A DNA stretch of 64,000 nt from Dillenia suffruticosa (Eukaryota > Streptophyta > Magnoliopsida > Dilleniales > Dilleniaceae): NCBI GenBank assembly GCA_033439265.1, contig JAVTVX010000015.1, forward strand, positions 22,559,947 to 22,623,946. The letters run 5' to 3'. The translations under genes were made by a program, and so were the position numbers. A model generated the notes under the pieces. The model worked only from the letters and a program-made list of their open reading frames with translations, did not search any database and was not told the DNA's origin. Shown in pieces: positions 9,501-58,712 of this stretch. Within the stretch, counting starts at the first letter, position 1. Each line of letters begins with the position of its first letter.

Positions 9501-9736
9501 TCATCTCTATTCAAGTCCATAATAATAGATTTCGATACTATGTTTAGGTTTTCTAAGAGGGTGGACACTAATGCTTATATTATACATATAATTTTATATT
9601 TCCAAAATTAATATTCATGACAGGTCAACATTAGGTATAGAATAAAAAATTCACTATGCTCCCAATAATCATCTATGATGCTAATGCATCACCATCATAA
9701 ATTTAATTTGAAACTACAAAATTCAATAGGTTTTAG

Positions 9737-10571: not shown

Positions 10572-10599
10572 TTTCCCTGAAGAAAAATATTAGGTTTGA

Positions 10600-12123: not shown

Positions 12124-12128
12124 GTATT

Positions 12129-26419: not shown

Positions 26420-26737
26420 TTAGGTAAAAGACTAGATCACACCTCGTTGTAAAATTTCACAGATCTCACCACTTAGTTTATCCTCCTTGCAAAAATCTAA
26501 TACAACAGTTCTAATTGCATTAAGAGAGATTTTAGTGACTTAATGATGTTTACTCTCACATTTTATGTACCATATGAATCAACAAATCCCAAATGATTCA
26601 AGTATAGACCCCAAAGTGAGTATATGAGTCAACGGACACAATGCACCACAACTCAAAATCGGACTTTACCATTCGAACTTGGATTTGGCACACAAAAACC
26701 CATAAATAGTCATATATATAGTGGTTGTATCCTACAA
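26420..26737. other. No feature recognised
   Basis: About 320 bp between the last copia D block and the start of the tRNA array. It might hold the truncated 5' part of element D. No LTR match found. Confidence 0.4.
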
Positions 26738-27310
26738 GCATTAAGGTCCCATAGACGAGTCAGATGAGTAAAGAAATAACTTGGGAAATTGTTGGTAGGC
26801 AATTGTATTTATCTAGAAGTGGAAAAAATTTGGAGTAATTTGTACTAAAGGATGGGCTTGAACCTTCAAGCTAGTGCTTAATAGCCACACACTCTAACCG
26901 AACTACTCTAGCTTCTACTAGAGAAACAATGAAGCATTAAGGTGCCATAGACCAGTGGGACTGGTAAAGAAGTAGTTTGAGAAATTATTTGAGGGCAATT
27001 ATAGTAGTCATACACTTTAATCAACTAAGCTACACTATCTTTTGCCAAAGAAAGAAGAAAGCATTAAGATGCCCTAGACTAGTCAAAATAGTAAAGAAGT
27101 AGCTTACAAAATTGTTAGTGCAAGATCATAGTAGGCTATGAACCTTAGACCTTTTGGTTAACATCCATACACTCTAACCAATTAAGCAACTAAGAAAGAA
27201 TAAAGCATTAAGATGCCGTAGACTAGTCGGAATAGTAGAAAAGTAGCTAAGGAAATTGTTGGTGGGCAATTATCATATTGTAGATGTGGGAAAAAAATTT
27301 GAATAATTTA

Positions 27311-27384
27311 CGCTAGAGGAAGGGTTTGAACCTTTGACCTTGTGGTTAACAGCCACACGCTTTAACCGACTGAGCTACTCCAGC
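27311..27384 (-). tRNA. tRNA-Asn(GTT)-like, near-intact
   Basis: 74 nt. Acceptor GCTGGAG pairs with CTCTAGC with one G-U, discriminator G. Anticodon stem TGTGG/CCACA is perfect with anticodon GTT; B-box GGTTCAAACCC. One mismatch each in the D stem (GCTC/AAGC) and T stem (AAAGG/CCTTC). An oligo-T run of seven lies at 27291-27297 downstream. No intron. Possibly transcribed, probably a weak or dead gene. Confidence 0.65.
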
Positions 27385-27654
27385 TTTTGCTAGGGAAAGA
27401 GGAAAGCATTAACATCCCCTGAACCAGTCGGAATACTAAAGAAGTAGATTGAGAAATTGTTGTCGGGGAATTATAGTGTTATGACTTTATGGTTAATAGT
27501 TCTACACTCTAATCAATTGAGCTATTCTAGCTTTTGCTATAGAAACAAGAAACTATTAAGGTCTCATGCACTGTCAAAATACTAGAGAAGTAGTTTGGAA
27601 AATTATTGGTAGGCAATTACAGTAATCTAAAAGTAGGAAAAATGTGGTAATTTG

Positions 27655-27728
27655 CACTAGAGGAAGGAATTGAACCTTCGACCTTGTGGTTAACAACCAC
27701 AAACTGTAACGAACTGAGCTACTTCACC
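27655..27728 (-). pseudogene. tRNA-Asn(GTT)-like, GGTGAAG type
   Basis: 74 nt with anticodon GTT and a clean T stem (GAAGG/CCTTC). The 5' end GGTGAAG cannot pair properly with CTCTAGT at the 3' end and the D stem is broken (GCTC/CAGT). This 5' variant defines one monomer type that recurs at 29350, 30560, 31733, 35190 and 36260. Confidence 0.7.
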
Positions 27729-28669
27729 TTCTGTAAGAGGAAAAAAAAACATTAAGGTCCCATGTACCAGTCAGAATAGTAAATAAGTATTTTGGGAAAT
27801 TGTTGATTGATATTTTTAGTAATAAAAAAAATAGAGTAATTTGCACTGAGTTACTCCAGCTTCTGCTATAGATACAAGAAAGCTTTAATGTCCCGTAGAC
27901 GAGTCAGAAGAGTAAAGAAATAGTTTGGGAAATTGTTGGAGGGCAATTTTAGTTATCTAGAAGTGGATAAAATTTAGAGTAATTTACGCTAAAGGATAGG
28001 CTTGAACCTTCACCCTTGTGCTTAATAGCCACATACTCTAACCGAGCTACTCCAACTTCTGCTAGAGAAACAATAAAGCATTAAGGCGCCCTGGACCAGT
28101 CGAAATAGAAAAGTAGTTTGGTAAATTGTTAGTGGGCAATTATAGTAATGTAATAATGGAAAAAAATTGGGGTAATTTATGGTTAACAGCCATAAGTTGT
28201 AACGAACTAAGCTACTTCACCTTCTGCAAGAGAAAAAAAAAACATTAAGGTCCCATGTACTAGTCAGAATAGTAAATAAGTAGTTTGGGACATTGTTGAT
28301 GGATAATTTTAGTAATAAAAAAAGAGTAATTTATACTGAGTTACTCCAGCTTCTGCTACAGATACAAGAAAGTGGTAATGTCCCCTAGATGAGTTAGAAG
28401 AGTAAAGAAATAGTTTAGGAAATTGTTGGTGCGCAATTGTATTTATCTAGAAGTGGATAAAATTTGGAGTAATTCATGTCAGAGGATGGGCTTGAACCTT
28501 CAACCTTGTACTTAATAGCCACATACTCTAACCAAGCTACTCCAACATCTGCTAGAGAAACAATAAAGCATTAAGGCGCCCTGGACCAGTCAAAATAGAA
28601 AAATAGTTTAGGAAATTGTTGATGGACAATTATAGTAATGTAGTAGTGAAAAAAAATTGGGGTAATTTA

Positions 28670-28743
28670 TGCTAGAGGATGGGCTTCAACCTTCAACCTT
28701 GTGGTTAATAGCCATACGCTCTTACCAACTAAGCTACTCCAGC
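28670..28743 (-). pseudogene. tRNA-Asn-like with ATT anticodon
   Basis: 74 nt, full-length type. The anticodon loop reads ATT in place of GTT. Acceptor GCTGGAG against CTCTAGC is good, but the D stem has a mismatch and the B-box is changed (GGTTGAAGCCC). Oligo-T follows at about 28650-28656. Confidence 0.65.
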
Positions 28744-29349
28744 TTTTGATAAAGAAAGAAGAAAGCATTAAGGTGTGTTAGACCAGTTGGAATAGTAAAA
28801 AAGTAGTTTGGGAAATTGTTGATGGGAAATTATAGTGGGCTTTGAACCTTCGACCTTTTGGTTAACAGCCACACCCTCTAACTAATAGAGCTACTGAGAA
28901 AGAATAAAGCATTAAGGTGCCCTAGACTGGTCGTTATAGTAAAGTAGTTTGGAAATTATTGGTAGACAATTATCGTAATCTAGAAGTGAGGAAAAATTGG
29001 AATAATTTAAGCTACAGGAAGGGTTTGAATCTTTGACCTTATGGTTAACAACCACGTGCTCTAACCTATTGAGCTAGTCCAACTTTTGCTAGGGAAAGAG
29101 GAAACCATTAACATACCATGGACTAGTTGAAATAATAAAGTAATTTGGAACATTGTTGGTAGGGAATTATAGTATTTTGCCTTTGTGGTATATTGCCATA
29201 CGCTCTAACCGACTGACTCTAGCTTTTGCTAGAGAAACATAAAAGCATTAAGATTTTGTAGATCAATCGGAATAGTGAAGAAGTATCTTGGGAAATTGTT
29301 GGCGAACAATTATAGTAATCTAGAAGTGGGAAAATATTGGGGTACTTTG

Positions 29350-29423
29350 CGTTAGAAGAAGGGTTTGAACCTTTGGCCTTGTGGTTAATAGCTACACGCT
29401 CTAACCAATTGAGCTACTTCATC
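29350..29423 (-). pseudogene. tRNA-Asn-like, GGTGAAG-type monomer, ATT anticodon
   Basis: 74 nt, with A-box TAGCTCAATTGG and B-box GGTTCAAACCC both fine, anticodon ATT. 5' end GATGAAG does not pair with CTTCTAACG. Confidence 0.65.
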
Positions 29424-31083
29424 TTTTGAAGCGAAACAAAAAGCATTAAAGTCCCATAGACTAGTCAGAAGAGTAAAAAAATAGTTTGGGAAATTGTTGA
29501 CGGATAATTATATTAATAAAAAAATTAGAATAATTTACAAGGAGTTACTCCAGCTTCTGCTAGAGATGCAACAAAGCATTAAGGTCCCATAGATAAGTTG
29601 GAAGAGCAAAGAAGATGTTTAGGAAATTCTTGGTGGGCAATTGTCGTTATCTAGAAGTAGAAAAAATTTATAGTAATTTACGCTAGTGGATCTTGAACCT
29701 TCAACCTTGTGCTTAATAGCCACACTGTAATCAAGTTAGTCCAGCTTCTGCTAGAGAAACAATAAAGCATTAAGGTGCCCTAGACCAGTTGGAATAATAA
29801 AGAAGTAGTTTGGAAAATTATTGATCGACAATTATAGTAATCTAGAAGTGAAAAAAAAAGTGGAGTAATTTATGCTAGAGGAAGGGCTTGAACTTTCGAC
29901 CTTATGGTTAACAGCCTCACGCTTTAACTAACTGAGTTACTCTAGTTTTTGCTTGAGAAAAAAGAAAGTTTTACGGTACCCTAAACTAGTCAGAATAGTA
30001 ACTAAGTAGCTAAGGAAATTGTTGGTGTGAAATTGTAGTAGGATTGGACCTTTAACCTTATGGTTAACTGCCACACACTCTAACCAACTAAGCTACTGAG
30101 AAAGAATATGGCATTAAGGTGCCCTAGACCAATTGGAATAGTAAAGAATTAGTTTGGAAAACTGTTGGTGGTCAATTATCGTATTCTAGAACTGGAAAAA
30201 ATTGAAATAATTTACACAAGAGGAAAGGTTTGAACCTTTGACCTTGTGATTAACAGCCCATACTTTAACCAATTGAGCTACTTTAGCTTTTGCTAGGGAA
30301 AGAGGATAGCATTAACGTCGCCTAACCAGTCAGAATAGTAAAGAAATAGTTTGGAAAATTATTGGTAGGGAATTATAGTGTTATTACCTTGTGGTTAACA
30401 GTCACACACTCTGAGCAACTAAACTACTCTAGCTTTTGCTAGAGAAACAAGAAAGCATTAAGGTCTCGTAGACCAATCGGAATAGTAAAAAAGTTACTTG
30501 GGATATTGTTGGTAGACAATCATGTAACCTAGAAATGGGAAAAAATTTGGGTAATTTGTCCTGAAGGAAGAGATTGAACCTTTGGCTTTGGGGCTAAAAG
30601 CCACATGCTGTAACCAACTTAGTTACTTCACATTTCGCAAGAGAAACAAGAAAACGTTAAGGTCCAGTAGACCTGTTAGAATAGTGAAGAAGTAGATTGA
30701 GAAATTGTTGGTGGATAATTTTAGTAATAAAAAAATTGTAGTAATTTATACCGACTTACTCTAACTTCTGCTAGAGATATAAGAAAGTGTTAATGTCTCA
30801 TAGATGAGTTAGAACTATAAAGAAATAGTTTGGGAAATTGTTGATGGGTAATTTTAGTTATCTTGAAGTGGAAAAAAATTGAAGAAATTTACGATAGAGG
30901 ATGGACTTGAACCTTCAACATTGTACTTAGCAGCCATATACTCTAACCGAGCCACTCCAGCTTCTGCTAGAGAAACAATGAAGTATTAAGGTGCCCTAGA
31001 TAGTTCAAATATAAAAGTAGTTTGGAAAATTGTTGGTGGGCAATAAAAGTGATCTAGAAGTAGAAAAAAATAAAAGTAATTTA

Positions 31084-31157
31084 CGCTAGAGGAAGGGTTT
31101 GAACTTTCGACCTTGTGGTTAACAGCCATACGCTTTAATGAACTGAGTTACTCCAGC
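31084..31157 (-). pseudogene. tRNA-Asn(GTT)-like, full-length type
   Basis: 74 nt with anticodon GTT and acceptor GCTGGAG/CTCTAGC intact (one G-U). D arm has lost the conserved GG of its loop (CAGTTCATT), and the T stem and B-box carry one change (GAAAG TTCAAAC CCTTC). Likely defective. Confidence 0.65.
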
Positions 31158-32246
31158 TTCAACTAGAGAAAGAAGAAAGCGTGAAGGTGTCTTAGACCAG
31201 TTGAAGTAGTAAAGAAGTAGCTTGGGTAATTGTTGGTGGGAAAGCCACGTGCTCTAACCAACTGAGCTATTTAGAAAGAATAAAGCATTAGGTACCCTAA
31301 ACCAGTCAGAATAGTAAAGAGGTAGCTTGGGAAATTGTTGGTGGGAAATTGTCGTAATCTAGAAGTGAGAAAAAATTAGAATAATTTACACTAGAGGAAG
31401 GGTTTAAAAGTTCGACTTTGTGGTTCACAGTCATAAGTTCTCACCAACTGAGTTATTCCAGCTTTTGCTAGGGATAGAGGAAAATATTAACATCCCCTAA
31501 ACAAGTCTAAATAGTAAACAAATAGCTTGGTAAATTATTGGTAGGGAATTTTAGTATAATGACCTTGTGGTTAGCAGCCACACAGTACCAACTGAACTAC
31601 TCTAGCTTTTGCTAGAGAAACAAGAAAGCATTAAGATCTCGTAGTCTAGTCAGAGGAGTAAAGAAGTAGCTTGAGAAATTGTTGGTAGGCAATTATAGTA
31701 ATCTAGAAGTAAGAAAAAATTGGGGTAATTTGCACTAGAGGAAAGCTTGAACCTTGGGCCTTGTGGTTAATAGCTACACGTTCTAACCGACTGACCCACT
31801 TCACCTTTTGCAAGAAAAATAAAAAAGCATTAAGGTCCCATAGATCAGTTAGAATAGTAAAGAAGTAGATTTGAAAATTGTTGACGGACAATTGAAATAA
31901 AAAAATTGGAGAAATTTGTACAGAGTTACTTTAGCTTCTACAAGCGATGCAAGAAATCATTAAGGTCTAATAGATGAGTCAGAAGAGTAAAGAAGTTGTT
32001 TGAGAAATTGTTGGTAGGCAGTTGTATTCATATAGAAGTGAAAAAAATTTGGAGTAATTTGCACTAGAGGATGGGCTTGAACCTTCAAGCTTATGCTTAA
32101 CAGCCACACACTCTACCTCGACTACTCCAGCTTCTAATAGAGAAACAATAAAGTATTAAGGTGCCCTAGACCAGTCGGAATAGTAAAGAAGTAGTTTGAG
32201 AAATTTTTGATGGACAATTATAGTAATTTAGTAGTGGAAAAAAATT

Positions 32247-34930
32247 GTTGTATGGGTATAAGGGATCAAATGAATCCATGGGTCAATTACTGGTCTAGTT
32301 TCATGCCGGAGTGATGAATCCCACTTTAGAATAGATTTTGGATCTAGGAAAATTGTGAATAGAGATTTTATAATGATGCAAATAATGACAAATTGATAAA
32401 AATGAGAACAAGAACAAGAAAATATTCAAAATTTGGGTTTAAATAATATTAGGAAAAATTTGTAAACCTTTGAATTTAAGGAGAAATGACCCGAAAATTA
32501 TTATTGTTGGTTAGGATAATCTGTTGAAGCTTAAAAGGAGATTTCTTTGGAGCCGATAATGCCTAGGGAATGAATACCCTCTTCAAGTGAGTGGAGGGCT
32601 ATGTTTCATATAAATGAGAAATTGCTTTCGACCATGGTTTCTCAATTGAAATTTTAAATGAGTTTGTGGAATGAATTTATAAATGTTTTGTGATTGTGGT
32701 GAGCCTTGAAATGGATTTTATGACAAAACCATGACTCCCGAATTTTAATGATGATTTATTTGCACCATGTTACGGTTGAATACTCATATGAATTGTGAAA
32801 TGTTGCTCTATCTTATACATTGAGCATGAATTGATTATGAAATTGAATGTGGTGACATGGTATTGGAAATGAAACGACTATAGTCTAAGTCTTGTCACGG
32901 ATGGGCCATCGGGGCGGCGTGGTTAAGGTTGGTTAAATTGTCTTGGGGGTAAGTGGGTTGGAGAGCCTCCACCAATTGCCAGATAACATGGTAGCACCCC
33001 ATGGAGCTTAGGGCTAATGCCAAGGAAAAAAAGAAATTTTATAAAAAAACTATGGAAAACCCCTTGGCGAATCCTTCCAATGGCCATTGGTAGGATAATT
33101 TTTCGGCACACCCCAAAATTGTGAAAAAATGAATATAGACTGTTTGATTCGATTATATGAGTCATGGTGGTTTGATATGAATGATTTTATGTGAATGAAT
33201 TTCTTTATCATATTAAATTATATTTGATACACATATTTGACATCACCACCTTCACCCCTCATTTATATGTTGCATTCCATTGCATTCCCACTCACTGGGT
33301 ATTAAAAATACTCACCCCCTCATTTTTAAAAATTCTTTCCAGAGGAAGTATAGAGTGACGACGTCTATAGTGTCGATCAGAGGTCTATTTTTGGTTGATT
33401 TTGAGTAGGTATGGATTATGTAATCATTTCGGGAGTTGTAGATCATTGGACCATGGAAAGGAAGTCCTGTACATCTCATAACGTGTAGATTTTATTGAAA
33501 CTCGCTTAATTTCCTCTAGCAAGTATTGGAAAAATTCGAACGACTATGATTTGAGACTTCATTTTTTTGTATGAAATTATTTTGAGAAAATGATTTATCT
33601 TGTACTAGGACATTTGGATTATAATGATGTATTTCGATATATTATTCCGATTTTATGAGTTTTATGAACTGTCTGAGAATTCTGCATTGGCCGGGATAGC
33701 CACAATGCATGTATGCATATACAGGGATTCCCCGATTGTGTGCCGATGCATGCATGTGTGTATAGGGATGGGCCAGATAGGTCCCTTGTATGTGTGTTGT
33801 GTATATGATTTCTATTTGATGGATTTTATGTTTTGGATGATTTATTGTATAATTGGAATGACTTGCGCTATCCCGTTGTATGGGGAGGTCATGCCTGTAT
33901 GTCGAGATAACACGGCGGTTGTTACGTGCCCGACGAGAGAGTAGGGGCATGACAGGGTTGGATAAGCTGGGGAGGCAGACTGGCTCCCTTTGCTGAAATC
34001 GTGTTATATCTGGACGCACCTCGGTGGGGTATGAGTCAACGCCAAGGAAGGGGGAACTATGATTGCTAAACAAATAGATTGAAAACCCATTGACGGGCTT
34101 TCATCCGAGTTTGGCCAAACCTAGGATGGGAGTGATTTCTTTGGGAGACCCCATGATTTTGGAAAGACTGAAATTTATGGATATATGTTTGGTTGAATTA
34201 TTCAGAATGTTGAGACTATTTTATATTTAAAGAGTTATTTATGAAATATGCTTTGAATTCCCAACATTCACCCCTCATTTATTGACATAATCATGATATT
34301 GCACTCTATTCATTGAGTATTTCCATACTCACCCCTCTATTCTCTATTTTTTAGAGGAAGTTTAGGTGGGAGATGTCATTAGAGCAAGTTGAAGATACTT
34401 TTTTTGCTGAATTGCTATAGGTATTGATGATGTAGATATTATTTTTGAGTTGATATGGTATGATCCGGAAAGAGGCTTGTACTCTTCATTTTGGTTTGGA
34501 TTTAATCGATACTTGTTTTATTTTCTTTGAAGCAAATATTGGTAAAATCCTTACTTGATTTTTTGTGGAACTTTATAAACTTTTGCTTATATTTGTCTTT
34601 TGTAAAACTTATGATTTCATTGGGACATTTGAACTTTATTGTGAATTTTGAGATGTTTGGAATTTGTGAAGACTTTATTAAGAATTCTTTGAGATGGCTG
34701 AGATGGCCTTATACATGCATTTGATTTTGATTGATTGGGATGACCTTATGCATGTCTGTTGTGATAAAATGGACTGGGATAGTTCTTTATATGTTGTTGA
34801 GTTATTTTTCTAAAATAGGTTGAACAAATTTAACGCCTTGCGGTATCCCGGTATATGGGGAGGTTCTGTCCGTATACCGAGATAATACGGCCGTTGTTGC
34901 GTGCTTGATTCGAGGGTTGGGGTGTGACAG
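32247..34930 (+). repeat. Compound gypsy LTR inserted in the tRNA array
   Basis: Two LTR-type 3' ends lie in tandem. The first ends GGGGCATGACA at about 33956 after the phrase TATCCCGTTGTATGGGGAGG. The second ends GGGGTGTGACA at about 34929 after a near-copy of that phrase (TATCCCGGTATATGGGGAGG, about 34845). The second copy starts mid-LTR: its GGTTGGATAAGC and GCCAAGGAA blocks match 32930-33030 and also 150-260 of the window-start LTR. So this is one LTR of about 1.7 kb plus a second, 5'-truncated LTR of about 1 kb. No internal domain and no clean target repeat were found; array sequence resumes at 34931 in a different phase of the monomer. Confidence 0.65.
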
Positions 34931-35698
34931 AAAGAGGAAAGCATTAACGTCCCTTGGACTAGTCGGAATAGTAAAGAAGTTGCTTAGGATATTGTTGGTC
35001 GGGAATTATAATGTTATGACCTTGTGGTTAACAACTCTACACTCTAACCGAGTTATTCTAGCTTTCGTTAGAGAAACAAGAAAGCATTAAGGTCTCGTGG
35101 ACCGATCAAAATACTAAAGAAGTAGTTTGGGAAATTATTGATAGGCAATTGTAATAACTTTGAAGTGGGAAAAATTGTGGTAATTTGCATTTGAGGAAGG
35201 GATAGAACCTTCGGTCTTGTGGTTAACAATCACAAGCTGTAACGAACTGAGCTACTTCACCTTACGCAAGAGAAACATAAAAACATTAAGCTCCCATGTA
35301 CTAGTCAGAATAGTAAAGAAGTAATTTGAGAAATTGTTGACAGGCAATTTTAGTGAGGAAAAAAAAAATTGGAGTAATTTACATTGAGTTACTCCAGCTT
35401 CTACTACAAATACAAGAAAGCATTAATGTCTTCTAGATGAGTCAGAAGAGTAAAGAAGTAGATTTGGAAATTGTTGGTGGGTAATTGTAGTTATATTGAA
35501 GTGGAAAAAATTTAGAGTAATTTACGCCGGAGGATGGGCTTGAACCTTCAACCTTGTGCTTAATAGCCACATACTCTAATCAAGCTACTCCAGCTTCTAC
35601 TAGAGAAACAATAAAGCATTAAGGTGCTCTGGATTAGTCAGAATAGAAAAGTAGTTTGGGAAATTGATGGTAGACAATTATAGTAATGTGGTAGTGGG

Positions 35699-35704
35699 AA
35701 AAAA
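35699..35704 (-). terminator. Pol III oligo-T terminator of the tRNA at 35718-35791
   Basis: Six consecutive A on the plus strand read as T6 on the transcript strand, 13 nt past the tRNA 3' end. The equivalent run (5-9 bases) follows most array units at the same distance, consistent with RNA polymerase III termination. Confidence 0.6.
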
Positions 35705-35717
35705 TTGGAGTAATTTA

Positions 35718-35741
35718 CGCTATAGGAAGGGCTTGAACCTT

Positions 35742-35774
<33 letters not shown>

Positions 35775-35791
35775 AACTGAGCTACTCCAGC
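35718..35791 (-). tRNA. tRNA-Asn(GTT), near-intact
   Basis: 74 nt. D stem GCTC/GAGC, anticodon stem TGTGG/CCACA and T stem GAAGG/CCTTC are all perfect; A-box and B-box (GGTTCAAGCCC) are canonical; anticodon GTT. The only flaw is the acceptor (GCTGGAG/CTATAGC), with one G-U and one G-A mismatch. A six-T terminator (A run 35699-35704 on the plus strand) lies 13 nt past the 3' end. A plausible expressed gene. Confidence 0.75.
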
Positions 35792-37346
35792 ATCTGATAG
35801 AGAAAGAAGAAAGCATTAAGGTGCACTAGACTAGTTGGCATAGTAAAGAAGTAGTTTGGGAAATTGTTGGTGGGAAATTATAGTGGGCTTTGAATCTTCG
35901 ACCTTTTGGTTAACAGCCACACCCTCTAACCAACAGAGCTACTGAGAAAGAATAAAGTATTAAGGTGCCCTAGACCAGTTGTTATATTTAAGAAGTTTTT
36001 TGGGAAATTGTTGATGGGTAATTATCGTAATCTAGAAGTGCAAACAAAATTGGAATAGTTTACTCTAGAGGAAGGGTTTGAATCTTTGACCTTGTGGTTA
36101 ACAGCCATGTATAATAACCAACTGAGTTGCTCCAGCTTTTGCTAAGGAAAGGGGAGACCATTAACATTTTCACCAATCGGAATAGTAAAGAAATAGTTTG
36201 TAAAATTGTTGGTAGACAATTATAGTAATCTAGAAGTGGGAAAAAATTAGGGTAATTTGCGTTAGAGGAAGGGCTTGAACCTTTGGCCTTGTGGTTAACA
36301 GTTACGCGCTTTAACCAACTGAGCTACTTCACCTCCTATTTGAGAAACAAAAAGTGTTAAAGTCCTTAGGACCCATCAGAAGAGTAAAGAAATAGTTTGG
36401 GAAATTGTTGACAGGCAATTATAGTAATAAAAAAATTGGAGTAATTTATAAGGAGTTACTCCAGCTTCTGCTAGAGATGCAAGAAAACGTTAAGGTCCTG
36501 TAGATGAGTCAGAAGAGCAAAGAAGTAGATTGAGAAATTCTTGGTGGTCGATTGTAGTTATCTAGAAGTGGAAAAAAATTTGGACTAATTTGTGCTTGTG
36601 GATGGGCTTGAACCTTCAACCTTGTTCTTAACAGCCACACACTCTAACTGAGTTACCCCAGCTTCTGCTAGAGAAACAATAAAGCATTAAGGTGCCCTAG
36701 ACCGGTTGGAATAATAAAGTAGTTTTGGAAATTGTTGATTAGCAATTATAGTAATCTAGAAGTGGAAAAAAATTGGAGTAATGTATGCTAGAGGAAGTGC
36801 TTGAACGTTCGACCTTGTAGTTAACAACTCACGCTCTAACCAACTGAGCTACTCCAGCTTCTGCTTGAGAAAAAAGAAAACATTAAGGTGCCTTAAACTA
36901 GTTGGAATAGTAAAGAAGTAGCTGAGTAAATTGTTGGTGTGAAATTATAGTAGGATTTGAACCTTATGGGTTTGAACTTTCAACTTTGTGGTTAACAGTC
37001 ATATGCTTTAACCAACTGAGCTACTCCAGCTTTTGCTAAGGAAAGAGTATAGCATTAACGTCCCATGACTAGTTGGAACAGTAAAGAAGTAGTTTGAGAA
37101 ATTGTTGGTGGGGAATTATGGAGTTATGACCTTGCGGCTAACAGCCATACACTCCAACCAACTTAGCTACTCTAGCTTTTTCTAGAGAAGCAAGAAAGCA
37201 TTAAGGTCTTGTAGACAAATTGGAATAGTAAAGAAGTTACTTTGGAAATTGTTGGTTGGCAATTACAGTAATCTAGAAGTGGGAAAAAATTGAGAAAATT
37301 TGTGCTAGAGGAAGGGCTTGAACCTTCGGCCTTAGGGTTTAATTTA

Positions 37347-37370
37347 CGCTAAAGGAAGGGTTTGAACCTT

Positions 37371-37403
<33 letters not shown>

Positions 37404-37420
37404 AACTGAGCTACTCCAGC
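37347..37420 (-). tRNA. tRNA-Asn(GTT), foldable without mismatch
   Basis: 74 nt and the best core in the window. Acceptor GCTGGAG pairs with CTTTAGC using two G-U pairs and no mismatch; discriminator G. D stem GCTC/GAGC, anticodon stem TGTGG/CCACA and T stem GAAGG/CCTTC are perfect. Anticodon GTT for Asn; B-box GGTTCAAACCC canonical. Its own terminator was lost: immediately 3' lies a truncated second core (about 37305-37338), so a transcript would run through that to the next oligo-T near 37285. No CCA is encoded, as expected for a nuclear gene. Confidence 0.75.
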
Positions 37421-39479
37421 TCCTACTAGAGAAAGAAGAAAGCATTAATGTGTGCTAGACCGGTTGGAATAGTAAACAAGTAGCTTGGGTAATTGTTGGT
37501 GGGAAATTATGGTAGGTTCTGAACCTTCGACCTTGTGGTTAATAGCCACACACTCTAACTAACTTAACTACTGAGGAAGAATAAAGCTTTAAGGTGCCCA
37601 AGACCAATCGAAATGGTAAAGAAGTAGCTTTGGACATTGATGATAGGCAATTATCGTAATCCAAAAATGGAAAAAAAATTAGAATAAATTATGTTAGAGG
37701 AAGGGTTCCATACGCTCTAACTAATTGAACTACTCCAGCTTTTGCTAGGGAAAGAGGAAAACATAGTCCACTAGATCAATCAGAATAGTAAAGAAATAGT
37801 TTGGAAAATTGTTGGTAGGGAATTATAGTATTGTGACCTTGTGGTTAATAGCCAGACACGCTAACCAGCTGAGCTACCCTAACTCGGGAAATTGTTGATA
37901 GGCAATTATAGTAATATAGAAGTGTGAAAAAATTGGGGTAATTTGCATTGGTGCATGGGCTTGAACCTTTGGCCTTGTGGTTAATTGCCACAAGCTCTAA
38001 TCAATTGAGCTATTTGACCTTTTGCAAGAGAAACGAAAAAAAAATTAGGTCCCATAAACCAGTCAGAATAGTAAAGTAGTTCGGGAAATTGTTGACAGGG
38101 AATTTTTGTAGTTAAAAATAATTGGAGTAATTTACACCGAGTTACTCTAGCTTCTGCTAGGATAGAAGAAAGCGATAAGGTCTGGTGGACGAGTTGGAAG
38201 AGTAAAGAAGTGGCTTGGAAAATTGTTGGCGAGCAACTATAGTTATCTAGAAGTGGAACAAAAATTGGAGTAATTTACACTAGAGGATAGGCTTGAACCT
38301 TCAACTTTGTGCTTAACAACCACACAGTTTAATCAAGCTACTCTAGCTTCTGCTAGAGAAACAATAAAGCATTAAGGTGCCCTAGACTAGTTGGAATAGT
38401 AAAGGAGTAGTTTGAAAATTTGTTAGTAGGTAATTATAGTAATCTAGAACTGGAAAAAAATTGGAGTAATTTACACTGGGCTTGAACATTTGACATTGTG
38501 GTTAACAGCCACACGCTCTAACCAACTAAGCTACTATAGCTTCTGGTAGAGAAATAAGAAAGGATTAAGGTCTCCTTGGCCAATCAAAATATAAAAGAAG
38601 TAGCTTGTGAAATTATTGATGGGAAATTATAATAATCTAAAAGTGGAAAAAAATTGGAGAAATTGAGGGTTTTAACTTTCGACCTTATAGTTAATAGTCA
38701 TACGCTCTAACCAACTAAGCTACTCTAATTTCTTAGGGAAATAAGAAAGCATTAAGGTTCCCTAGACTTATTGGAATAGTAATGAAATAGCTTATGAAAT
38801 TGTCGGTGGGCTATTATAGTAATCTAATAGTGGAAAAAAAATTGGGGTAATTTGTGGTGGGCTTGAATCTTTGACCTTGTGGTTAACAACCACATGCTCT
38901 AACTAACTGAGCTACTCTAACTTTTGTTAGAGAAACAGGTAAGCATTAAAGTCCCATATACTAGTCGAAATACTAAAGAATAAAGAAGTAATAGGTTAAA
39001 CCTTCAACCTTGTGGTAGTTTGGAGTAATTTATGCTAAAGGAAGGCTTGAGCCTTCGACCTTGTGGTTAACAGCCACGCGCTCTAACCAACTGATAGGGA
39101 AACAAGAAAGCATTAAGTTATCATCCCCTAGACCAGTTGGAATTGAGCTGCTCCATCTTTTGCTAGTGGAATAAGAAAGCATTAAGTTGTCGATCCCTAG
39201 ACTAGTTGGAATTTATTGATGGGCGATTATAATAATTTAGAAGTAGAAAAAAATAGGAGTAATTTATAGCAGAGGAAGGGCTTGGACCTTCAAACTTGTG
39301 ATTAATAGCCACACGCTCTAACCAACTGTGCTTTTGCTAAAGAAACAAGAAAGCATTAAGTTGCCTATGTTGATGAAAGGGGTTTGAACTTTCGACCTTG
39401 TGGTTAGCAGCCACACGCTCTAATCAACTGAGTTACTCTAGCTTCTTCTAGATAAGTAAGAAAGTACGTCTAAAAGCTT

Positions 39480-41208
39480 AGTAAAACTAAAAATTTCAAC
39501 CAATTCAAATCTCTGGCTAAAAGTTTCATTTTAATCCTCTTTTTAACAAATTAATGACTTTTGGCTTTTGAAGTTCATGACTAGAATGCTTTTTCTTCCC
39601 AATTGGTAATTACCAAACATTACGACCATGTCTTTCTTGAAGCTTATTTCTTTATTCTGCCTAAGTATTTGGTTAAAGAAGGCATAGTGGCATTGGAAAA
39701 TATTCTCTGGTTGAATTATAGAAGATGAGAATAGCAGTTTTGTTGGTCTATTTAGATTTGAAAAGTGTGGATTTGAATGAATAGAAATCACGTGGAACGC
39801 TATTTAATTTCCTTATATACTTCTATGTAGTCAAATTTATATGCACATAGGCATTTATTAATGCATGTATTTCAAATGGCTAGCTATTACGTCTCAAAAT
39901 ATAATGCTAGGTCATGGTGTGGTTTTAACTCTAGTTGAGGTGCTTTGACAAGAAAATGTCATAATCAAGCGTGGCTTTACTGTAGTACCGATATCCAACT
40001 ATTTTAACAAAAATATAACTTAAGTTAATTTTGTCTCACTATTGACAATAAAGTTGTGTACCTGTGCTTCTTTCTCACTGTGACTAAAGTTGACCACCAA
40101 AGAGCAGTTGGTGATCTTGTTAACCAAAAAGTAAAGAATAAGCAAATGTTTGATTTTTATAAGTAAAATAAGATTTTAGAAATTGAAAATTTGGAGAAAT
40201 TAACGGTAGAGGAAGGGATTCAACCTTTGCAGCTAGACATCCTAACCAACTGAGCTAGTCCAGCTAGGGTTACAAATTAGCAAAGTACGAATCTAATTAC
40301 CCATTTTTACTGTTAACCACGTGAAGCCAAAGAAATAAAAATGGAAATGAATCAATTGACACAAATCTCAAGCAAAAATTTTCAATACAATCCGTGTTCT
40401 TCCCTTTTTTGTTATAAAAAAAATAATGTCTATTCTGCTTTCGAATTTCATGACTGAATTTTCTGCTTTCGTAGTTTATAGACCAATCAGCTATTTTCAG
40501 TTTTTTACCCCCACACATCCCCCAAAAAAAACCTTATTGATTAAAGTTTTTATATAGTCTCCCAAATATTTGGTTGAAGGAGTAGCACTTGTAGGATTAC
40601 TTTTAAATTGTGTAGCAGAAGATGTGAGCAATATGATGCGGTCAACTGACAAAGATTTGCCCAAGGGTTTAGGATCTTATATGATATGGGGACTGAAAGT
40701 ATAGCTAAATAGGAAATTAAGCTATTGAGTGTAAAGAAGAAGGTTTTTAAGAATGTGCCTATTCCATTTCAGAAATCACATGCATGCTTATTATTGCAAA
40801 AGTTTGGAGAACCAATGAATATACCCCTTTGAGTTAACTGATCACTCCGACTAATCTTATATAGGAAGTTTATGCTTTTTAGTGCTTACCTTATTATTGC
40901 TAAATAGGAAATCACATGCATGCTTATCTTCTAGTTCATATTCTTATATCTATTTCTTCACATTTTTTGTTCCATCTATTTGAGTCATCCAATTAAATTA
41001 GCTTTAATTTGCACAAGTAAATATAGGCTGGTGTTTAATTTAAAAAAAAAACAAAGTTTGAGTTTTAATAATAAATCTAATTTATTTAGTGGTTAATATG
41101 AAAGATAATTATTTTTTATTGTGTAGTCCCGATCCTATATGTCTCGTATTAAATATTTTAAAAAATTAGCTTTCAATTTATCTATAAATTCATTGTGTTA
41201 ATGGTATT
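39480..41208. other. Non-coding segment (copy B of 2720-4386)
   Basis: No gene seen. Contains the 61-nt truncated tRNA-like core at 40204-40264. A short local duplication (AGGAAATCACATGCATGCTTAT) near 40905-40925, repeating sequence at about 40780, is absent from copy A. Ends with the copia target repeat GTATT at 41204-41208. Confidence 0.6.
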
Positions 41209-41716
41209 TGAAGGTTTCATGTAAACCAACAAATAATTTTTTTTTGCATGCAGAAATTCACGGATCTAATTAGATTAGAATCATTTACCTCTTTCTGACA
41301 GTTGAGTATCCTCGGTCTAGAAGATGTCACGAAATTGGTTCACATTCTGTTTTTCATGATGCAAATGCCTTGATGATAAAATGATCAAAATTCTTTAATC
41401 CCTTTTTTTTTTTGTTTCTCAAAATAGGAGAAAATTACACTCTCTTCATTCTTGCTCTTAAACAAAAAAAAATAGTTTTTACGAATTCTCCTTTTTTTTT
41501 ATTTCTTCTCGTCACATCCCAATAGTGAAGGGAATTGGGAGGTTCTTATTTTCTTGGTGAGAGGTTTCCAAAAGGACAGAGTGAGGGGAGTTAAGGGGTA
41601 GTTGCCAAAATTAACTACTCCACTTCCCATTTCATTTTGTCATTTAATTTTCAAATTCAAAATGGAAGTGGTTTGTGAGTTTGCCCTCATGGGTGAACCA
41701 CATTCATTTTCTAACA
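41209..41716 (-). repeat. Copia B 3' LTR
   Basis: Begins TGAAGG and ends CTAACA, with the PPT complement (CTCCCACTCG) just inside at 41719. Confidence 0.87.
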
Positions 41717-41983
41717 TCTCCCACTCGCACATGAGGGCTAGATTCGTATGCAACATGATCATTACAATCAAATACTAATTTCATACAGGCAAGTAGATCG
41801 TGTAATTTACGAGAATACCAAGAGCTCTAGAGCTATACACCGGTTAAGAATATATAGCAGCTCAACGTTAATGTGGTGATGAGGACGCCATTTCTTGCTA
41901 TACCCCAAACCTCTTAAACTCGACACAATCAACGTATCTCTCATTTCTCAAAACAATATAAGAGCATACTTCACTCAAACCAT

Positions 41984-42316
41984 TCATGTATTCACAATTA
42001 CATCTTTAAACACTAAGTCATAGATATAATTGATCGGTCTGTGAATACAGAGCAATGTGTCGATCAAAAACAGTCTTCGTTTTATGCTATTAATTTTCAA
42101 TCTTATCTTAACCGCTGTTCTAGACATGCACCGCCAAACCGAATCAACCATAATTTCTTGGTAACATGCTAAAGTAGCAACACTAAAATAAAATCTCAAA
42201 AGACAGACAAAAGTCCTAAGGGTATAAATTGGGGTTAAATATAAATCTCCGAGTCTCACACAATGAGATAAAGAGGGATGCACTATCTCATTGCCCATAT
42301 GCTCACATAAGCGCAC
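41984..42316 (-). CDS. 110-aa open frame in copia B 3' region (unknown)
   Basis: Same length and position as 5157-5489 in copy A. Starts MRLCEHMGNEIVHPSLSHC and ends FKDVIVNT. No recognised domain. Confidence 0.3.
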   Translation of the reverse strand: MRLCEHMGNEIVHPSLSHCVRLGDLYLTPIYTLRTFVCLLRFYFSVATLACYQEIMVDSVWRCMSRTAVKIRLKINSIKRRLFLIDTLLCIHRPINYIYDLVFKDVIVNT

Positions 42317-43725
42317 GTGGTATGAAACACGTGCTATGATACTCTATCTTCCGTCTGGAAGCGTATGTTTTATTTCTAAAAAAAGGGCATCGTACAAGAC
42401 TTAGTCCAAGTGTACACAACACTTGACCTGAGTTTTCCTTCTTATATGTCCTCAAGAAAATCTCATAATATCAAGGAAAAAACTCACACCTGGCTATTCG
42501 ACAAGTCCAATGGATTGTGGGGAATCCATTTTGATTACCACATATGTATACTTAATGGGTAATCTTATCTTAGTACTTAACTAAGGCGGCATATATGTGT
42601 GTTAATCTACCACAAATTAACACAATCTCATCTCTACATATCATACAAATATTAGAGGTGATTGCTCGTGTAAAAGAGCCAATCTCAAAACTTGTCTGAC
42701 ATACTTTTAACGTAAACACCAGAATTTTGGACACAAAAACAAAATTCAAATGTCATTGAATATGAGTATTATATCATATATACTCTGTATATGATTACAT
42801 TCTTAATCACAGTACTATCATAATAATCTACACAACTCTAGAAACCCAACATGTCCTTTGGTGATGGCTTTACGAATGGATCAGCTACCATCAAATGCAT
42901 AGACATGTACTTTAGTGTCATTTCCTTCTTTTCAATCATGTCTTTAACAAGATTGATTTTTGTGTCTATATGTTTAGTTTTGCCATCATATTTGGAGTGT
43001 CTAGCATAGGCAACAACTGACTTATTATCACTAAGTCATAACTCCCACTGAATGTTTACTACTCTCAAATATTGTAAAAAATCTATACAACCAAACATCT
43101 CTTGAACTGTAAAGTACAGATCTCAAAGTCTACTTTTACTGTAGAAAGAGATACACAAATTTGTTTTTTGCTACTCTATAAGATAGCGCTATCATTGAGC
43201 AAGCAAATATAACCAGAGATAGATTTTTTTCATCTAAATTATCTCACCAATCACTATAATGTATCATTTCAACACTAGATTATTTCCTTAATTACAAAGG
43301 AAATAATCTACAGTTCTATTCAGGTATCTCAAAATCCTATTCACATCAATCCAATTTTTACTTTCTGGTTTGGATGGATACCTGCTGGCCAAATCCATAA
43401 CTTGACAAATATCGGGACGAGTACACATCGTAGTGTACTTCAAGCTCCCAATTGTGTTAATATGTTATATTCTGGACATTTCATTTATTTATCAGGAGTT
43501 TTAGGGTATTGCATCATTTGAACTATCGCCTTTAGCCATAAGAGTATTAATGGGTTTCGAGTTTTCAATTTTGTATAGTTTCAGAGTCTTCATAATATGA
43601 GACTCCTGAGATAATCCAAACAATCTCTCGAAACGATTTTTATGTGTTTTAATTCCCAATCTGTCTTAACCCATATCCTTCATCTCAAAATTAGAATGCA
43701 ACAATTTCAAGATCTGAAAGACATA

Positions 43726-44040
43726 CTACTTATTATTCCCGAGTAACAATATGTCCTCGACATATAGGGATAGAATTACAAAGTTGTCATCGGACATCTC
43801 AACATGAGTACAATGGTTTTCGTCCACAATGACGAAATTATAAGATATCACACCTTTGTGAAATCTTAAATACCATTGTCTAGAAAACTGTTTAAAGTCA
43901 TAAATTGATCTACTCAATTTATATACTCTATTTTCCTAGTCTTCAATGACAAAACCCTTTGGTTGTGCCATATAGACTTCTTCCTCAAGTTCTCAACTGA
44001 GAAAAGCAGTCTTCATGTCCATCTAACGTAATTTTAAATC
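43726..44040 (-). pseudogene. Copia B reverse transcriptase remnant
   Basis: Contains FKQFSRQWYLRFHKGVISYN and LSLYVEDILLLGNNK: the catalytic YVDD is changed to YVED, unlike copy A, and a stop follows right after the block. Upstream KTAFL and ELEEEVYMAQPKGFVIED-type blocks are interrupted by stops shared with copy A. Confidence 0.8.
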
Positions 44041-45649
44041 CAAATTGGCCACTATTCCAACAATAGGTGAAAGGGGGTAAATCTCATTACTAGGAAAAGG
44101 TTTCCTCATAATCAACACTTTTTAGAGAGTGTAACCTCTTACTACTAGTTGAGTTTTTTACCTCTAAATAGTTTAATATACCATACACTTGGTTCTGAGA
44201 ACTCACTTGTTCCCAATAATCTTGTGCCCTAATAGAAGTTCAACCAATTCCAATATATGGTTAGAACTCAATAACTCAAATTCTTCTTTTTCCATTGCTT
44301 TTATCCACTCATCCTTGGTAGGACTAGATAGAGTCTAATATATGTTTTAGACCCTTGCTCATCTTCTGGAGAAACAATAAATACGTGCCATTTATTCTCA
44401 AAATAACAGATGGGCACTACTTTCCTAACACTTTTCTAAGTTTGTAACTCAGTTAAATCGTTAGAATTCAAATCTCTCCCACTAGGATTAATTTCATTCT
44501 AATGATCCACTATAGATAGAGACATCCTTTAAATCAACTAATTCAAATAAAAGTTCATGTCTTCATGTCACTTTTACTAGGAAATTCATTCTCCAGTGTG
44601 ACATCCATGATCCAATCTTTACTACAGTTTCATCTTCTTGTTTACCAATGAACATTTAACTTTTAGATTGGTCGGAGTATCTTATAAAAATACTCTTACT
44701 TTTATGGGGACCCATTTTTTCAAACTCATTGGAAATGTAAAATATAGATGATCGATTCCCAAGATCTAAGATTATTCAGAATTGGCTTTCTATCAGTTCA
44801 AAGTTCATGTAATGCGATGATATTGATTTTGAAGGCATTTTGTTCAAAAGTATAATCCGCAGTTAACAAGACATTTCCTCAAAAGGAAATTGATAAGTTA
44901 CCCCGTACCATCATGGATTTTGTCATATCCAACAATATTTTATTGTTTCTTACTACAACACCATGATGCTGAGGTGTTTAAGGAATGCTCAAATGTTGGA
45001 TTATACTTCTTTCATTACACAGATTCTTAATTCGATCTAATAGATATTCACACCATCATCCATTCAATTCTCTAATATGTTTATATAATATCTAAAATAC
45101 TTAAGTATTTTCAGACTTGTGAGAAATCAAATAGACACAACCAAATGGTGTGAAGTCATCTATGAATGTAATAAAACACAAATTTCATATCTTCCTGCCT
45201 TCAAACTCATTGAACCACAAATATTTGAATGGACTAACAACAATGGAATTCAGCCTAAATGGCTTTTCCAAATGATTTTCTCATTATTTTGCAAACATAA
45301 CAATATTCAACTTAATAGTTAAATATTTGTCCATTATATTATAAAAAATATAGAACCATTTACAAACTGTCCAGAACCAATACATGTCATTCAATGACAA
45401 ATTTACCTTGTCTTTCTGAAAGTTCAAAAACATAGCCAGGTTCCAAAAAACAAGAACATATAAGATTCTGTCGTATTTCGGGTATGTAGAGAACATCACG
45501 CAAAATAAGAGCTCGGTAACTTTGTAACTTCAATTTACAAGTGCCTGTTTCTCTAACCACCATTTTTACATTGTCCACATCGATCTATCTCGAACTAGAA
45601 GACATTCGACAAAAATCTTTAAGTGTCTCTTAATCTGTTCTTATTTCCA

Positions 45650-46400
45650 GAGTTATTCTTTTGTGATCTTTCTCCATTGTCCTTTCCTTTCTTGTTTTCA
45701 TTCTAGTCCCTTTCACACTTAGAGTCTGAAATTCTCTTGAAACTAGACTCTATAACAAAAATATCAGCTATGGATCTTACAGCATCAAGCCGCTCATCCT
45801 CAAGCTTAATGTGGCAAGCAACATCCGAGAAAGTTTTCACACTATCATTGTGAGTCAAACTGATTTTCAGGTGCTTCCACTTGGAGGAAGGGATTGGATC
45901 AAGATTTGAACTTTCTATTTATCGAAGAAGACATGACCAGCTGACTACCATTCTCTAATTATGTAGACATGACTCTTAATTACTATTTGATACTATGACA
46001 ATATCACTTTTCATAGATATCAAACATTATGGTTAGTTGTCTAAGATGAGTCACTGGTGTCTCCATGTTTTACCATGAGGTACACTTAGATATCATAAGC
46101 AGTTACATATTACTCACACTCGGATATCATGTCATCGATCACAGAGCTAACCAAGGTTGCACGAACAGTGGGGTCTATCATTTTCCACGTCTGGCAAACC
46201 TCTTGTTCTCTCCTCTGCGGAGCAGAATTGCCCACAGTAAGGTCCACCATGACATGCTTGATACCTTCCAAGGTATCATATTCTTTCAGCATGTATCACA
46301 TTTTATGGTGTCATATCTCATGATTGTCGCAATTCAATTTGTCACCTCTATTCAAGTCCCTAATAATAGACTTCGATACTATGTTTTGGTTTTCTAAGAG
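45650..46400 (-). pseudogene. Copia B gag remnant
   Basis: 46292-46110 carries MLKEYDTLEGIKHVMVDLTV and SSVIDDMISECE, the N-terminal Gag region. The C-terminal MTHNDSVKTF equivalent follows at about 45870. Opposite-strand frames here are shadows. Confidence 0.75.
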
Positions 46401-47087
46401 GGTGGACACTAATACTCATATTATACACATAATTTTGTATTTCCAAAATTAATATTCATGATGCGTCAACAATAGGTATAGAATAAAAAATTCACTATAT
46501 TCCCAATCATCATCTATGATGCTAATGCATCACCATCATAAATTTAATTTGAAATTACAAAATTCAATAGGTTTTAGGTGAGAATTACTCAAATTCTGCC
46601 AACAAAAAAATCTCCCACCTAAATACACAAAGTATTTAAATAACATTACAATTTTCGATGAAAATTACTCAAATTCTATCAATTCAAAATTTTCATTTAA
46701 ATATACAAAATATTTAAATAATATTTTAATTTCGGATGAGAATTACTCAAATTCTACCAATCCAAAATTTTTAGTTAAGAAATCCTAGTTTTCTTTTGAC
46801 TACATGATCATATACTTTAATAAATAAAACCAACAATTGCTAAAAAAGAAACTTTGCATTAAAAAAAAGGTTCCTCTATTACATGATCATACTCTTAGCC
46901 AGCAATTATAATACGCAAAAGAAGACATATGAATAAATTATTTCGTTTAGGACAAATCTATTCGGGATATCATATTTACAATTCCCTTAGATAGTCTATC
47001 ACTAGGTACAAATCTCTTGACCGCTCGTAGAGAACTATTTATATTTTGTGATAACTTTTTCTTTATTTGGCTCTCCATAGTTTTGAC

Positions 47088-47336
47088 TTACCATTTTTCT
47101 ATTAATAACGACCTCACATCATCCAAAATCATGTGTCCATTCTCGGTAAGCAACTCATTAACTACGCTAGCCCAATAAGGAGACAAAAAGTTTCTCAATA
47201 TGTACACGTCATCCTCCCAAAAGACATGACCTAACTGAATAAGCTCCAAGCGTCTCACTTCCATGATCTCCAGATGATCCGACAAAGTATGAGATGCATT
47301 CATTCTATAAGTCAACATTTGATCAAACTTCATCAA
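47088..47336 (-). pseudogene. Gag-like module upstream of copia B gag
   Basis: An 82-residue open frame with HTLSDHLEIMEVRRLELIQL, LRNFLSPYW and MILDDVRSLLIEKW, longer than in copy A, where it is interrupted. It resembles part of a copia capsid domain but is separate from, and 5' of, the main gag block. Confidence 0.5.
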
Positions 47337-48458
47337 ACGCTCTGGAGTTCTCAGATCTCTTTCCCTTCCCTAGAGGTCCGGAAGACTTTCAAAAAAACGT
47401 CTGATTATCACCATTTCCCCTGAAGAACAATATTAGGTTTGATAAGAAACCAACCACCAATTACAATAAATCTCAGAAAATTTAATTTAAAAAATATTTG
47501 CTCAAATTTCAAATAATTTTATATTACAAAAGCTAATTTTTGAATATAAATAATTGAACAAAAAATGCAAACAAATGGTGAGTGAAAAACAAATCTTCAC
47601 CTAGGTAGCCAAAATTAAGAAAATAATTTTCTACTCTCATATAAAAATTTTCAGAATTTTTCATGCGCCAAAAATAATTTGTCTACAATTTTATACAATT
47701 TTTAAGTCAAAAAATTAATAAAATTATTTTTTCAATCTAAAAAATAAATTAAAATATACAGAAAAATTCAGAGGGAGTAAAACATTGTTCCAGTGAAAAT
47801 TCTATCCAAAACGGAGCCATCACGCTCCCCCATGCACATCCAGAGTGGGCTGTCCAAAATGGACATACTACCACTCTCCTTGCGTGGTGCGTGACCTTCA
47901 CGCACCACCTTTCTGGCACCGGATGGCTCCGAAATTTTGGTTATCCCCCCATTTTCAATGTCTCGGAGTTCAATGGTACTTTTGGATTTTCAATTGGAGG
48001 TCTCTAGCCTAGGGGTGGATCTCACTTGCCACTGCCGAGAGTGAGATTGGCTTGACATTGTTCATCTTCTTCTTCAAATTTCTGGTTTTTGACCCAAATT
48101 TCGAACAGCCATATCTCTCTCAATTGCTAACCATATTTTGCGTTCTTTATTTGGTTGGAAAACATTTTTCAAGAGAAATCTAGTCATATAAATTGCATTT
48201 CATGAAACACAATATTTTTACAAATCCGAGTATATTAAGTTTCGGCTAGAGTTTGTTATATCTCATACTCATCAGATGCATGCCAAATTTTACAAATTTT
48301 ATCCTCATGCAACAAATATCCTACTGTGTAAAAGTGAGAGCATTCCATTAAGCCATTTGCAAGTTGCCATTGATGAACCTTGAAAATTAATTTTGGTATT
48401 TTCATTTTTAATACCCAACTAAAGAGGTAGGAAACATCTTAAATGGCTCTAATACTAA

Positions 48459-48966
48459 TAAAGGTTTCGTATAAACAAACAAATAATTTTTTTTGCATGT
48501 AGAAATTCACGGATCTAATTGGGTTAGAATCACTTATATCTTTTTGACAGTTAAGTATTCTCGGTCTAGAAGATGTCACGAAATTGAATCACCTTTTGTT
48601 TTTCACAATGCCAATGTCTTGATGATGAAATGATCAAAATTCTTCAAGCCCTTTCTTTTATTTCTCAAAATAGAAGAAAATCACACTCTCTTCATTCTTG
48701 CTCTCAAACAAAAAAATTGGTTTTTATGAATTCCCCCTTTTTTTTTGTTTCTTCCCATCACATCCCAATAGTGAAGGGAATTGGGAAGTTCTTATTTTCT
48801 TGGTGAGAGGTTTCCAAAACAAAGGAGAGAGTGAGGGGAGTTAAGGGGTGGTTGCCAAAATTAACCACCCCACTCCCCATTTCATTTTGTTATTTAATTT
48901 TCAAATTCAAAATGGAAGTGGATTGTAGGTTTGCCTTCATGGGTGAACCACATTCATTTTCCAACG
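48459..48966 (-). repeat. Copia B 5' LTR
   Basis: Starts TAAAGG and ends CCAACG, sharing both decayed termini with the copia A 5' LTR. The PBS variant TAGTATTAGAGCC (minus strand) is next to it, at about 48445-48457. Confidence 0.87.
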
Positions 48967-58700: not shown

Positions 58701-58712
58701 ACAACCCAATCC

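Follow-up and report, generated by a model that had tools for sequence, protein, structure and literature searches.

A higher-order satellite of tRNA-Asn-derived monomers and its related copies on one contig of Dillenia suffruticosa

The tRNA-Asn array of the window

The DNA described here, referred to as the window, is a 64,000-nucleotide stretch of the Dillenia suffruticosa genome (596 Mb in 37 contigs, assembly GCA_033439265.1), located on contig JAVTVX010000015.1, hereafter C15, at 22559947-22623946. Window 26736-39466 is spanned by a minus-strand, head-to-tail tandem of one monomer family of about 140-195 bp, made of a tRNA-Asn-derived core and a common spacer. A monomer profile comprising the tRNA core (columns 1-73) and a spacer of up to 124 columns tiled this interval with 63 matches and gave 10 others at 1210-2701. 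The Rfam tRNA model, at its gathering score, matched the window 25 times and never on the plus strand; 20 of these matches lie at 26.8-39.5 kb and five at 1.5-2.7 kb. The seven tRNAs called by ARAGORN were all tRNA-Asn and all within the main array. An initial annotation had described a minus-strand tandem of tRNA-Asn-like cores with conserved spacers, covering about 10 kb with an extra piece of about 1.5 kb near 1198-2720. These results bear it out, the 10 kb corresponding to the array less an insert of 2.68 kb. With seven ARAGORN genes in 12.7 kb, the window array overall falls below a published definition of a tRNA cluster (at least three intact tRNA genes per kb; PMC11700998).

The monomers are ordered in a higher-order repeat (HOR). 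Seven types, which we labelled A to G from position and deletion pattern, were told apart by deletions and sequence and reappear in the order A-B-C-D-E-F-G; at 28478-32247 the periods are 1203, 1211, and 1172 bp. The first clean unit, at 28480-29683 (minus strand), has A at 28480, B at 28671, C at 28838, D at 29011, E at 29176, F at 29352, and G at 29542. It is followed on the same strand by a second A-G unit (29684-30894) and a third one in which C is shortened (30895-32063), both identified by the monomer profile and a lag test. In this test, carried out on the 22 monomers of 28480-32251, mean monomer identity was 0.80, 0.82, and 0.85 at lags 7, 14, and 21 (15, 8, and 1 pairs, respectively) against 0.72-0.77 at other lags, and none of 5000 shuffles of the monomer order reached the observed lag-7 contrast. 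Same-position monomers of successive units are more alike than neighbours, yet they differ by about 20%. The three recurring sets of monomers pointed out by the initial annotation correspond to types B (28671, 29874, and 31085), D (29011, 30219, and 31391), and F (29352, 30562, and 31735). The fixed order with a period near 1.2 kb that it proposed for the array holds at 28.5-32.2 kb but not elsewhere, where units are fused or shortened, as in the 1070 bp from 35524 to 36594. A monomer tree, which included 46 of 63 window monomers together with 21 of the 41 monomers of a related array described below, supported the types in part: A, D, F, and G each formed one clade (support 0.92-0.99) and four of the six B monomers fell in one pure clade, but C and E did not group. 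By its tandem structure and monomer order, the window array belongs to the HOR satellites.

The left part of the satellite (26736-32251, minus strand) includes the clean 7-monomer HOR at 28480-32251, that is, three repeats of types A-G and one A, and was delimited by the profile, Rfam, and the lag test. An LTR-like (long terminal repeat) insert of 2.68 kb at 32252-34926, with ends reading TG...CA by eye and no target-site duplication identified, splits the array. About 400 bp of array (B, C, and part of D) are missing at the insert junction, as judged by the expected monomer order. In the right part (34927-39466, minus strand), defined by the monomer profile, the HOR is less regular and the final 1.5 kb consists of shortened monomers.

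Two type B monomers of the right part carry a near-intact tRNA-Asn(GTT) on the minus strand, at 35717-35792 (66.9 bits, one mismatch to a dispersed tRNA-Asn gene over 72 compared columns) and at 37347-37420 (71.4 bits, two mismatches over 72 columns); a tRNA-Asn(GTT)-like gene with four mismatches to the dispersed gene lies at 27311-27384 (minus strand, 61.4 bits). A full core, with at most four columns missing, is present in 19 of the 63 window monomers, and two of these 19 are within three mismatches of the dispersed gene. In the regular HOR, the tRNA is incomplete in types C, E, and G. Cores were also scored for the generally known A-box, B-box, and T-run motifs. Among 35 near-full window cores, 30 have a B box within one mismatch and 30 a T run of at least four, and all three motifs, with the B box exact and at most one mismatch in the A box, are retained together in five. 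The idea of a centromere-satellite-like higher-order array of mostly tRNA-Asn pseudogenes thus agrees with the HOR test, the decayed cores, and the tree. Both the periodicity near 1.2 kb and the tRNA-Asn similarity, either of whose absence the initial annotation had named as fatal to its reading, were looked for and found.

Segmental copies and the young sister array

Window 1704-12559 and 38471-49398 are the left and right copies of a segmental duplication, 92-94% identical at an offset of about 36.8 kb. The array piece at 1210-2701 (minus strand), collinear with 37940-39466 at about 94% identity and bordered on its left by LTR-like sequence, is therefore the tail of a neighbouring array copy. 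The duplication also carries a 78-bp tandem repeat, at window 9731 and 46579, and lone decayed tRNA-Asn-like monomers are found at 3439-3524 and 40206-40273, about 0.7 kb outside each of the two array copies. A second copy, complete and collinear and here called the paralogue, lies at C15:22746090-22763559. It is 93-97% identical to the window, has the insert at the same place, and contains a 5-kb interruption of its own. That the array is an effect of chance or of assembly is hardly credible. HOR copies and segmental duplicates are difficult to assemble, but same-position monomers differ by about a fifth and segmental copies by 5-8%, the paralogue has a different, later insertion, and the shuffles never reproduced the HOR contrast.

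The genome was searched with a monomer, a spacer, or a 549-bp unit of the sister array introduced below; the counts are lower bounds, as first-look candidates were scored in part, and the match sets overlap. The type B monomer gave at least 217 matches, those listed all being at C15:22.31-22.76 Mb (40 of 240 candidates scored). The type A spacer alone gave at least 94, with 94/94 at C15:22.313-22.763 Mb (40 of 149 scored), and the 549-bp unit at least 324, with C15 alone among the matches listed (29 of 132 scored). By our reading of the positions, the matches listed form about 11 blocks at C15:22.3129-22.7636 Mb, together with the edge of the sister array and an outlier at 23.283 Mb. In 401-bp slices taken at tRNA matches across C15:22.350-22.699 Mb, core and spacer were found in 10 of 10. 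These data point to about 11 segmentally duplicated, decaying relics of the satellite, on C15 as far as searched. The outlying array (C15:23282700-23285700) belongs to the same monomer family. Its monomers follow another order, and ARAGORN calls three tRNA-Asn in it.

The tRNA-Asn core itself is widespread, its pattern (at most three mismatches) matching 237 times on the forward and 27 times on the reverse strand of the genome. Seven of eight single dispersed tRNA-Asn genes that we fetched match the monomer model at the core or a few bases more, and four of four other Asn arrays or pairs (C15:12.83 Mb, C18, C21, and C29) match it in the core only. A further tRNA-Asn array at C15:12.80-12.90 Mb, of which 2.2 kb was read, has a spacing of mostly about 1893 bp, an intact core pattern, and an unrelated spacer. 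A short interspersed nuclear element (SINE) consists of a tRNA head joined to an unrelated tail, and the monomer has this plan. Amplification in tandem of a tRNA-derived SINE or other mobile element is nonetheless highly improbable, even with searches that scored part of their candidates. The places found for the spacer lie in one region, no dispersed copies of it, as a SINE requires, being found among the 40 of 149 candidates scored or the 58 young-spacer matches, all on C15; the cores are close to complete tRNA genes, and the monomers stand head-to-tail with constant junctions.

The sister array, at C15:~22857501-22903318, lies about 260 kb from the window relic. It is homogenised and holds many intact tRNA-Asn genes, and we refer to it as the young array; no monomer was found beside it at 22856000-22857500. 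A pattern of its spacer (at most two mismatches) has 58 matches in the genome, 58/58 at C15:22858665-22903070. Its monomers, spaced mostly by 179-187 bp, follow the order abcabc and make a 549-bp trimer, with an identity of 0.91 at lag 3 against 0.81 at lag 1. Ten of 13 trimers belong to two mostly alternating subtypes (1098 bp), with identities of 0.95-0.99 within and 0.89-0.91 between subtypes. In 7.5 kb of this array, we counted 23 ARAGORN tRNA-Asn and 26 Rfam matches. This makes about three tRNA genes per kb by ARAGORN, whereas the cluster definition of PMC11700998 uses a high-confidence filter instead. All 14 a cores of the 7.5 kb score at least 55.8 bits, 12 of 13 b cores are listed at 39-72 bits, and none of 13 c cores exceeds the Rfam cut-off. 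In the young array, 20 of 41 cores are within three mismatches of the dispersed gene, and 12 of 40 have all three motifs by the criteria used for the window cores.

Other features of the window were also noted. A Pfam scan of 10 of its 45 displayed open reading frames gave matches for three, every one a retroelement domain. A Ty3-type retroelement at 56840-61906 (minus strand), with a weak chromodomain match, lies between LTR-looking direct repeats that are 95% identical (54149-56000 and 62109-64000). Tandem repeats with palindromic CGTCGCTAAATTTAGCGACGG-like units, at 50271-50635 and 51995-52416, flank an A/T-rich stretch.

Divergence of old and young cores

Window and paralogue were compared over six aligned blocks, 395 array bases being left out. 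Cores differed at 178 of 3160 sites (5.6%) and spacers at 307 of 6153 (5.0%; p 0.20), with 143 of 2670 (5.4%) for the insert and 203 of 3482 (5.8%) for the flank and unassigned bases. Since the duplication, the cores of the window array have thus changed no slower than spacer, insert, or flank, which indicates that they are pseudogenes and not a maintained domain bound by TFIIIC and RNA polymerase III (Pol III). Such a domain, which the initial annotation had suggested, could act as an insulator, boundary, or fragile site; its cores would keep A and B boxes for TFIIIC and need not make tRNA. The B box and T run kept by most near-full cores would suit it, as would a dip in divergence at the B-box columns between the window and this one paralogue (20/656 against 465/8657 elsewhere, nominal p 0.008; the four lowest of 180 windows start at columns 6-9). 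However, the dip is lost when three more copies are added (55/1328 in these columns for the five copies, p 0.83 relative to the rest, ranking 77th among 180 windows), only the five cores mentioned above have all the motifs, and the tRNA of types C, E, and G is incomplete. We therefore regard a platform kept for that purpose as very unlikely.

The best-preserved core in the relic is that of type B. Six type B relic cores show 1-8 differences from the dispersed gene, against 4-17 for 20 other full-length cores with at most six columns missing (Mann-Whitney p 0.0007). That type B is still functional in the window was ruled out, as its core drifts like its spacer (21/434 and 27/554).

In the young array, variability was measured on 83 of 106 monomers (26 a, 27 b, and 26 c with a full core), array-edge monomers and all those of L058 being left out. 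The a cores have 11 variable sites out of 73, fewer than the a spacers (26/74, p 0.007) and fewer than the b and c cores (28/72 and 29/72; p 0.001 and 0.0008), while the spacers of a, b, and c monomers do not differ in variability. As copies in this array are related by exchange and not independent, these p values are optimistic and indicative. The low variability of the a core could also stem from gene conversion restricted to the core.

We also considered that the arrays, window copy included, serve as a bank of functional genes supplying tRNA-Asn, as the Arabidopsis Ser/Tyr cluster would. The two window cores within two mismatches of the dispersed gene, their scores in the paralogue, which stay high (69.5 and 66.3 bits), and the many near-perfect cores of the young array agree with this. 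The rarity of full cores in the window and the lack of constraint since the duplication, type B included, make it improbable; the idea of a gene bank suits the young array better than it does the window.

Origin, related tRNA arrays, and meaning

The account that we favour builds on the shared monomer, the HOR order, the segmental copies, and the lack of core constraint since duplication, all observed at this locus. Very probably, the window holds a relic satellite that arose from a tRNA-Asn gene and its flank, acquired its HOR by exchange, was copied in blocks along C15, and decayed. The satellite monomer would derive from a nuclear tRNA-Asn(GTT) gene and some 115 bp of its flank, multiplied in one C15 region. 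Unequal exchange or gene conversion between out-of-register copies would then have given nested repeats, namely the 3- and 6-monomer HOR (549 and 1098 bp) of the young array and the 7-monomer HOR (1.2 kb) of an older branch; we infer that unequal exchange was the motor. The older array and its flanks would then have been duplicated some 11 times across about 450 kb, each block measuring tens of kb. Relics would have been pierced by retroelements and copies would have decayed where exchange stopped, the window being one such relic with the tail of another. The relic arrays would be silent, and tRNA output, if any, would come from the young array and the few surviving cores.

Several observations weigh against this account. 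The dispersed gene L044 matches the monomer model to column 142, past the core. The genome searches, having scored part of their candidates, leave room for places elsewhere. The array missing at the insert junction is not accounted for by simple insertion, and types C and E are not monophyletic on the monomer tree. Inside the young array, 22.8887-22.9001 Mb has no match to the spacer pattern, and its right end (22899000-22900064), the part that was read, has no monomers; three of 13 young trimers match neither subtype. Finally, over five copies, cores are faster than spacers (309/6200 against 453/11576, p 0.0009). This excess agrees with lost constraint, and base composition does not fully explain it. 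As a sole cause, composition was rejected: when bases were classed by either copy the difference looked even, but split by the window base, cores are faster at A/T sites (95/1740 against 165/4189, p 0.012), G/C sites being alike (83/1420 and 141/1965, p 0.14).

Other tRNA arrays of the genome also have HORs. A tRNA-Ile(TAT) array at C1:4318484-4359990 consists in its centre of an 819-bp dimer HOR (11.4 copies at 99%) and at its edges of monomers of about 410 bp at about 75%; each 819-bp unit pairs a strong core (61-63 bits) with a weak one (28-32 bits). A tRNA-Cys(GCA) array at C11:12577500-12587499 has a 388-391-bp monomer and a 1160-bp trimer HOR. Each trimer has a strong core, which scores 58-64 bits. 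Its other two cores are weaker, at about 38-43 bits in the last three units; in the two units before these, the second core still reaches 50-56 bits. Further tandem tRNA-Cys, tRNA-Lys(TTT), and tRNA-Ile arrays were noted at L014 (C2), L017 (C8), L018 (C30), L021 (C29), and L011-L013 (C13), the C13 array with an offset near 7.69 kb.

These units led us to a tentative hypothesis, supported at one locus and possible although doubtful: selection may preserve one or more working tRNAs in every exchange unit as passenger monomers decay, and the decayed passengers would then set a longer register for unequal exchange, making the HOR a by-product. In the Asn unit of 549/1098 bp, core a is good in 14 of 14 units and b in some, and all 13 c cores fall short of the Rfam cut-off; the strong and weak cores of the Ile and Cys units fit likewise. 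A trace of such selection may persist in the relic, because its type B core is the best preserved. On the other hand, core b is often intact in the young array and the Cys units are less clean. Support from the C11 tRNA-Cys array is weak, the intact core varying at 9/73 sites against 207/942 in the spacer (p 0.054; p 0.13 against decayed cores). Variability in the C1 tRNA-Ile array gives one gene per unit no support (core 3/76, spacer 19/662, decayed core 3/71).

In centromeric HORs of the alpha-satellite type, a homogenised young array is accompanied by degenerate older copies, and monomer order is nested. The present arrays share the nested order and the young and old copies, but their ancestor is a known gene; the likeness is one of repeat structure and not evidence for a centromere.

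Tandem tRNA genes have been reported in several organisms, and the statement of the initial annotation that known plant tRNA clusters are simple tandems was too strong. Maize Mo17 chromosome 4L carries tRNASAT_ZM, a 91.95-kb tRNA satellite of Repbase (PMC10335936), which resembles ours as a plant chromosome-arm satellite that takes its name from tRNA. It was compared with ours by description, and the available passage on the HOR method names knob180, TR-1, and CentC (PMC10335936). The Arabidopsis Ser-Tyr-Tyr (SYY) cluster, with two isotypes, is silenced in most tissues and expressed in root cap cells (PMC12308677). It is also a local plant tandem of a multi-tRNA-gene unit, transcribed by Pol III (PMC12308677); unlike it, the present array has one isotype, a common spacer, 3-, 6-, and 7-monomer HORs, mostly dead cores in the window, and segmental block copying. 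Clusters of tRNA genes occur commonly among angiosperms, and their silencing is possible (PMC11700998, PMC12308677). Among them, the maize tRNA-Ile cluster of 28 genes and the angiosperm tRNA-Pro clusters are single-isotype tandems, as here, but that survey takes high-confidence genes only, relic monomers being uncounted, and the term 'higher-order' is absent from its text (PMC11700998). The Arabidopsis tRNA-Cys clusters resemble ours in having repeat units (about 0.4 kb, four to six units) and an edge pseudogene, with copy-number variation; the text uses neither 'satellite' nor 'higher-order' (PMC10701932). The word 'satellite' is likewise absent from another report of tandem tRNA genes (PMC12652284). 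In Entamoeba, most tRNA genes lie in arrays with units of up to five tRNA genes and short tandem repeats between them (PMC2652664); long tandem arrays are common to both, multi-gene units and short repeats being Entamoeba features. No tRNA-Asn satellite or HOR of tRNA monomers was found in the literature searched, in which long result lists were covered in part and few subscription papers were included. Since tRNA clusters and a maize tRNA satellite were already known, the present array is a variant with an HOR of tRNA-Asn monomers.

The origin of satellites and of HORs is an open question, studied mostly on sequences with no surviving ancestor. In the present case, the ancestor is a known gene whose function can be tested, and the locus illustrates how a working gene can become satellite DNA. 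The young array, the older HOR, and about 11 relics, whose divergence allows them to be ordered, all lie within 600 kb, and the genome has parallel arrays of other tRNAs. Such a system lends itself to asking directly if the HOR unit is shaped by function and at what point constraint ends. If selection does maintain a gene in each unit, the HOR would arise as its by-product.

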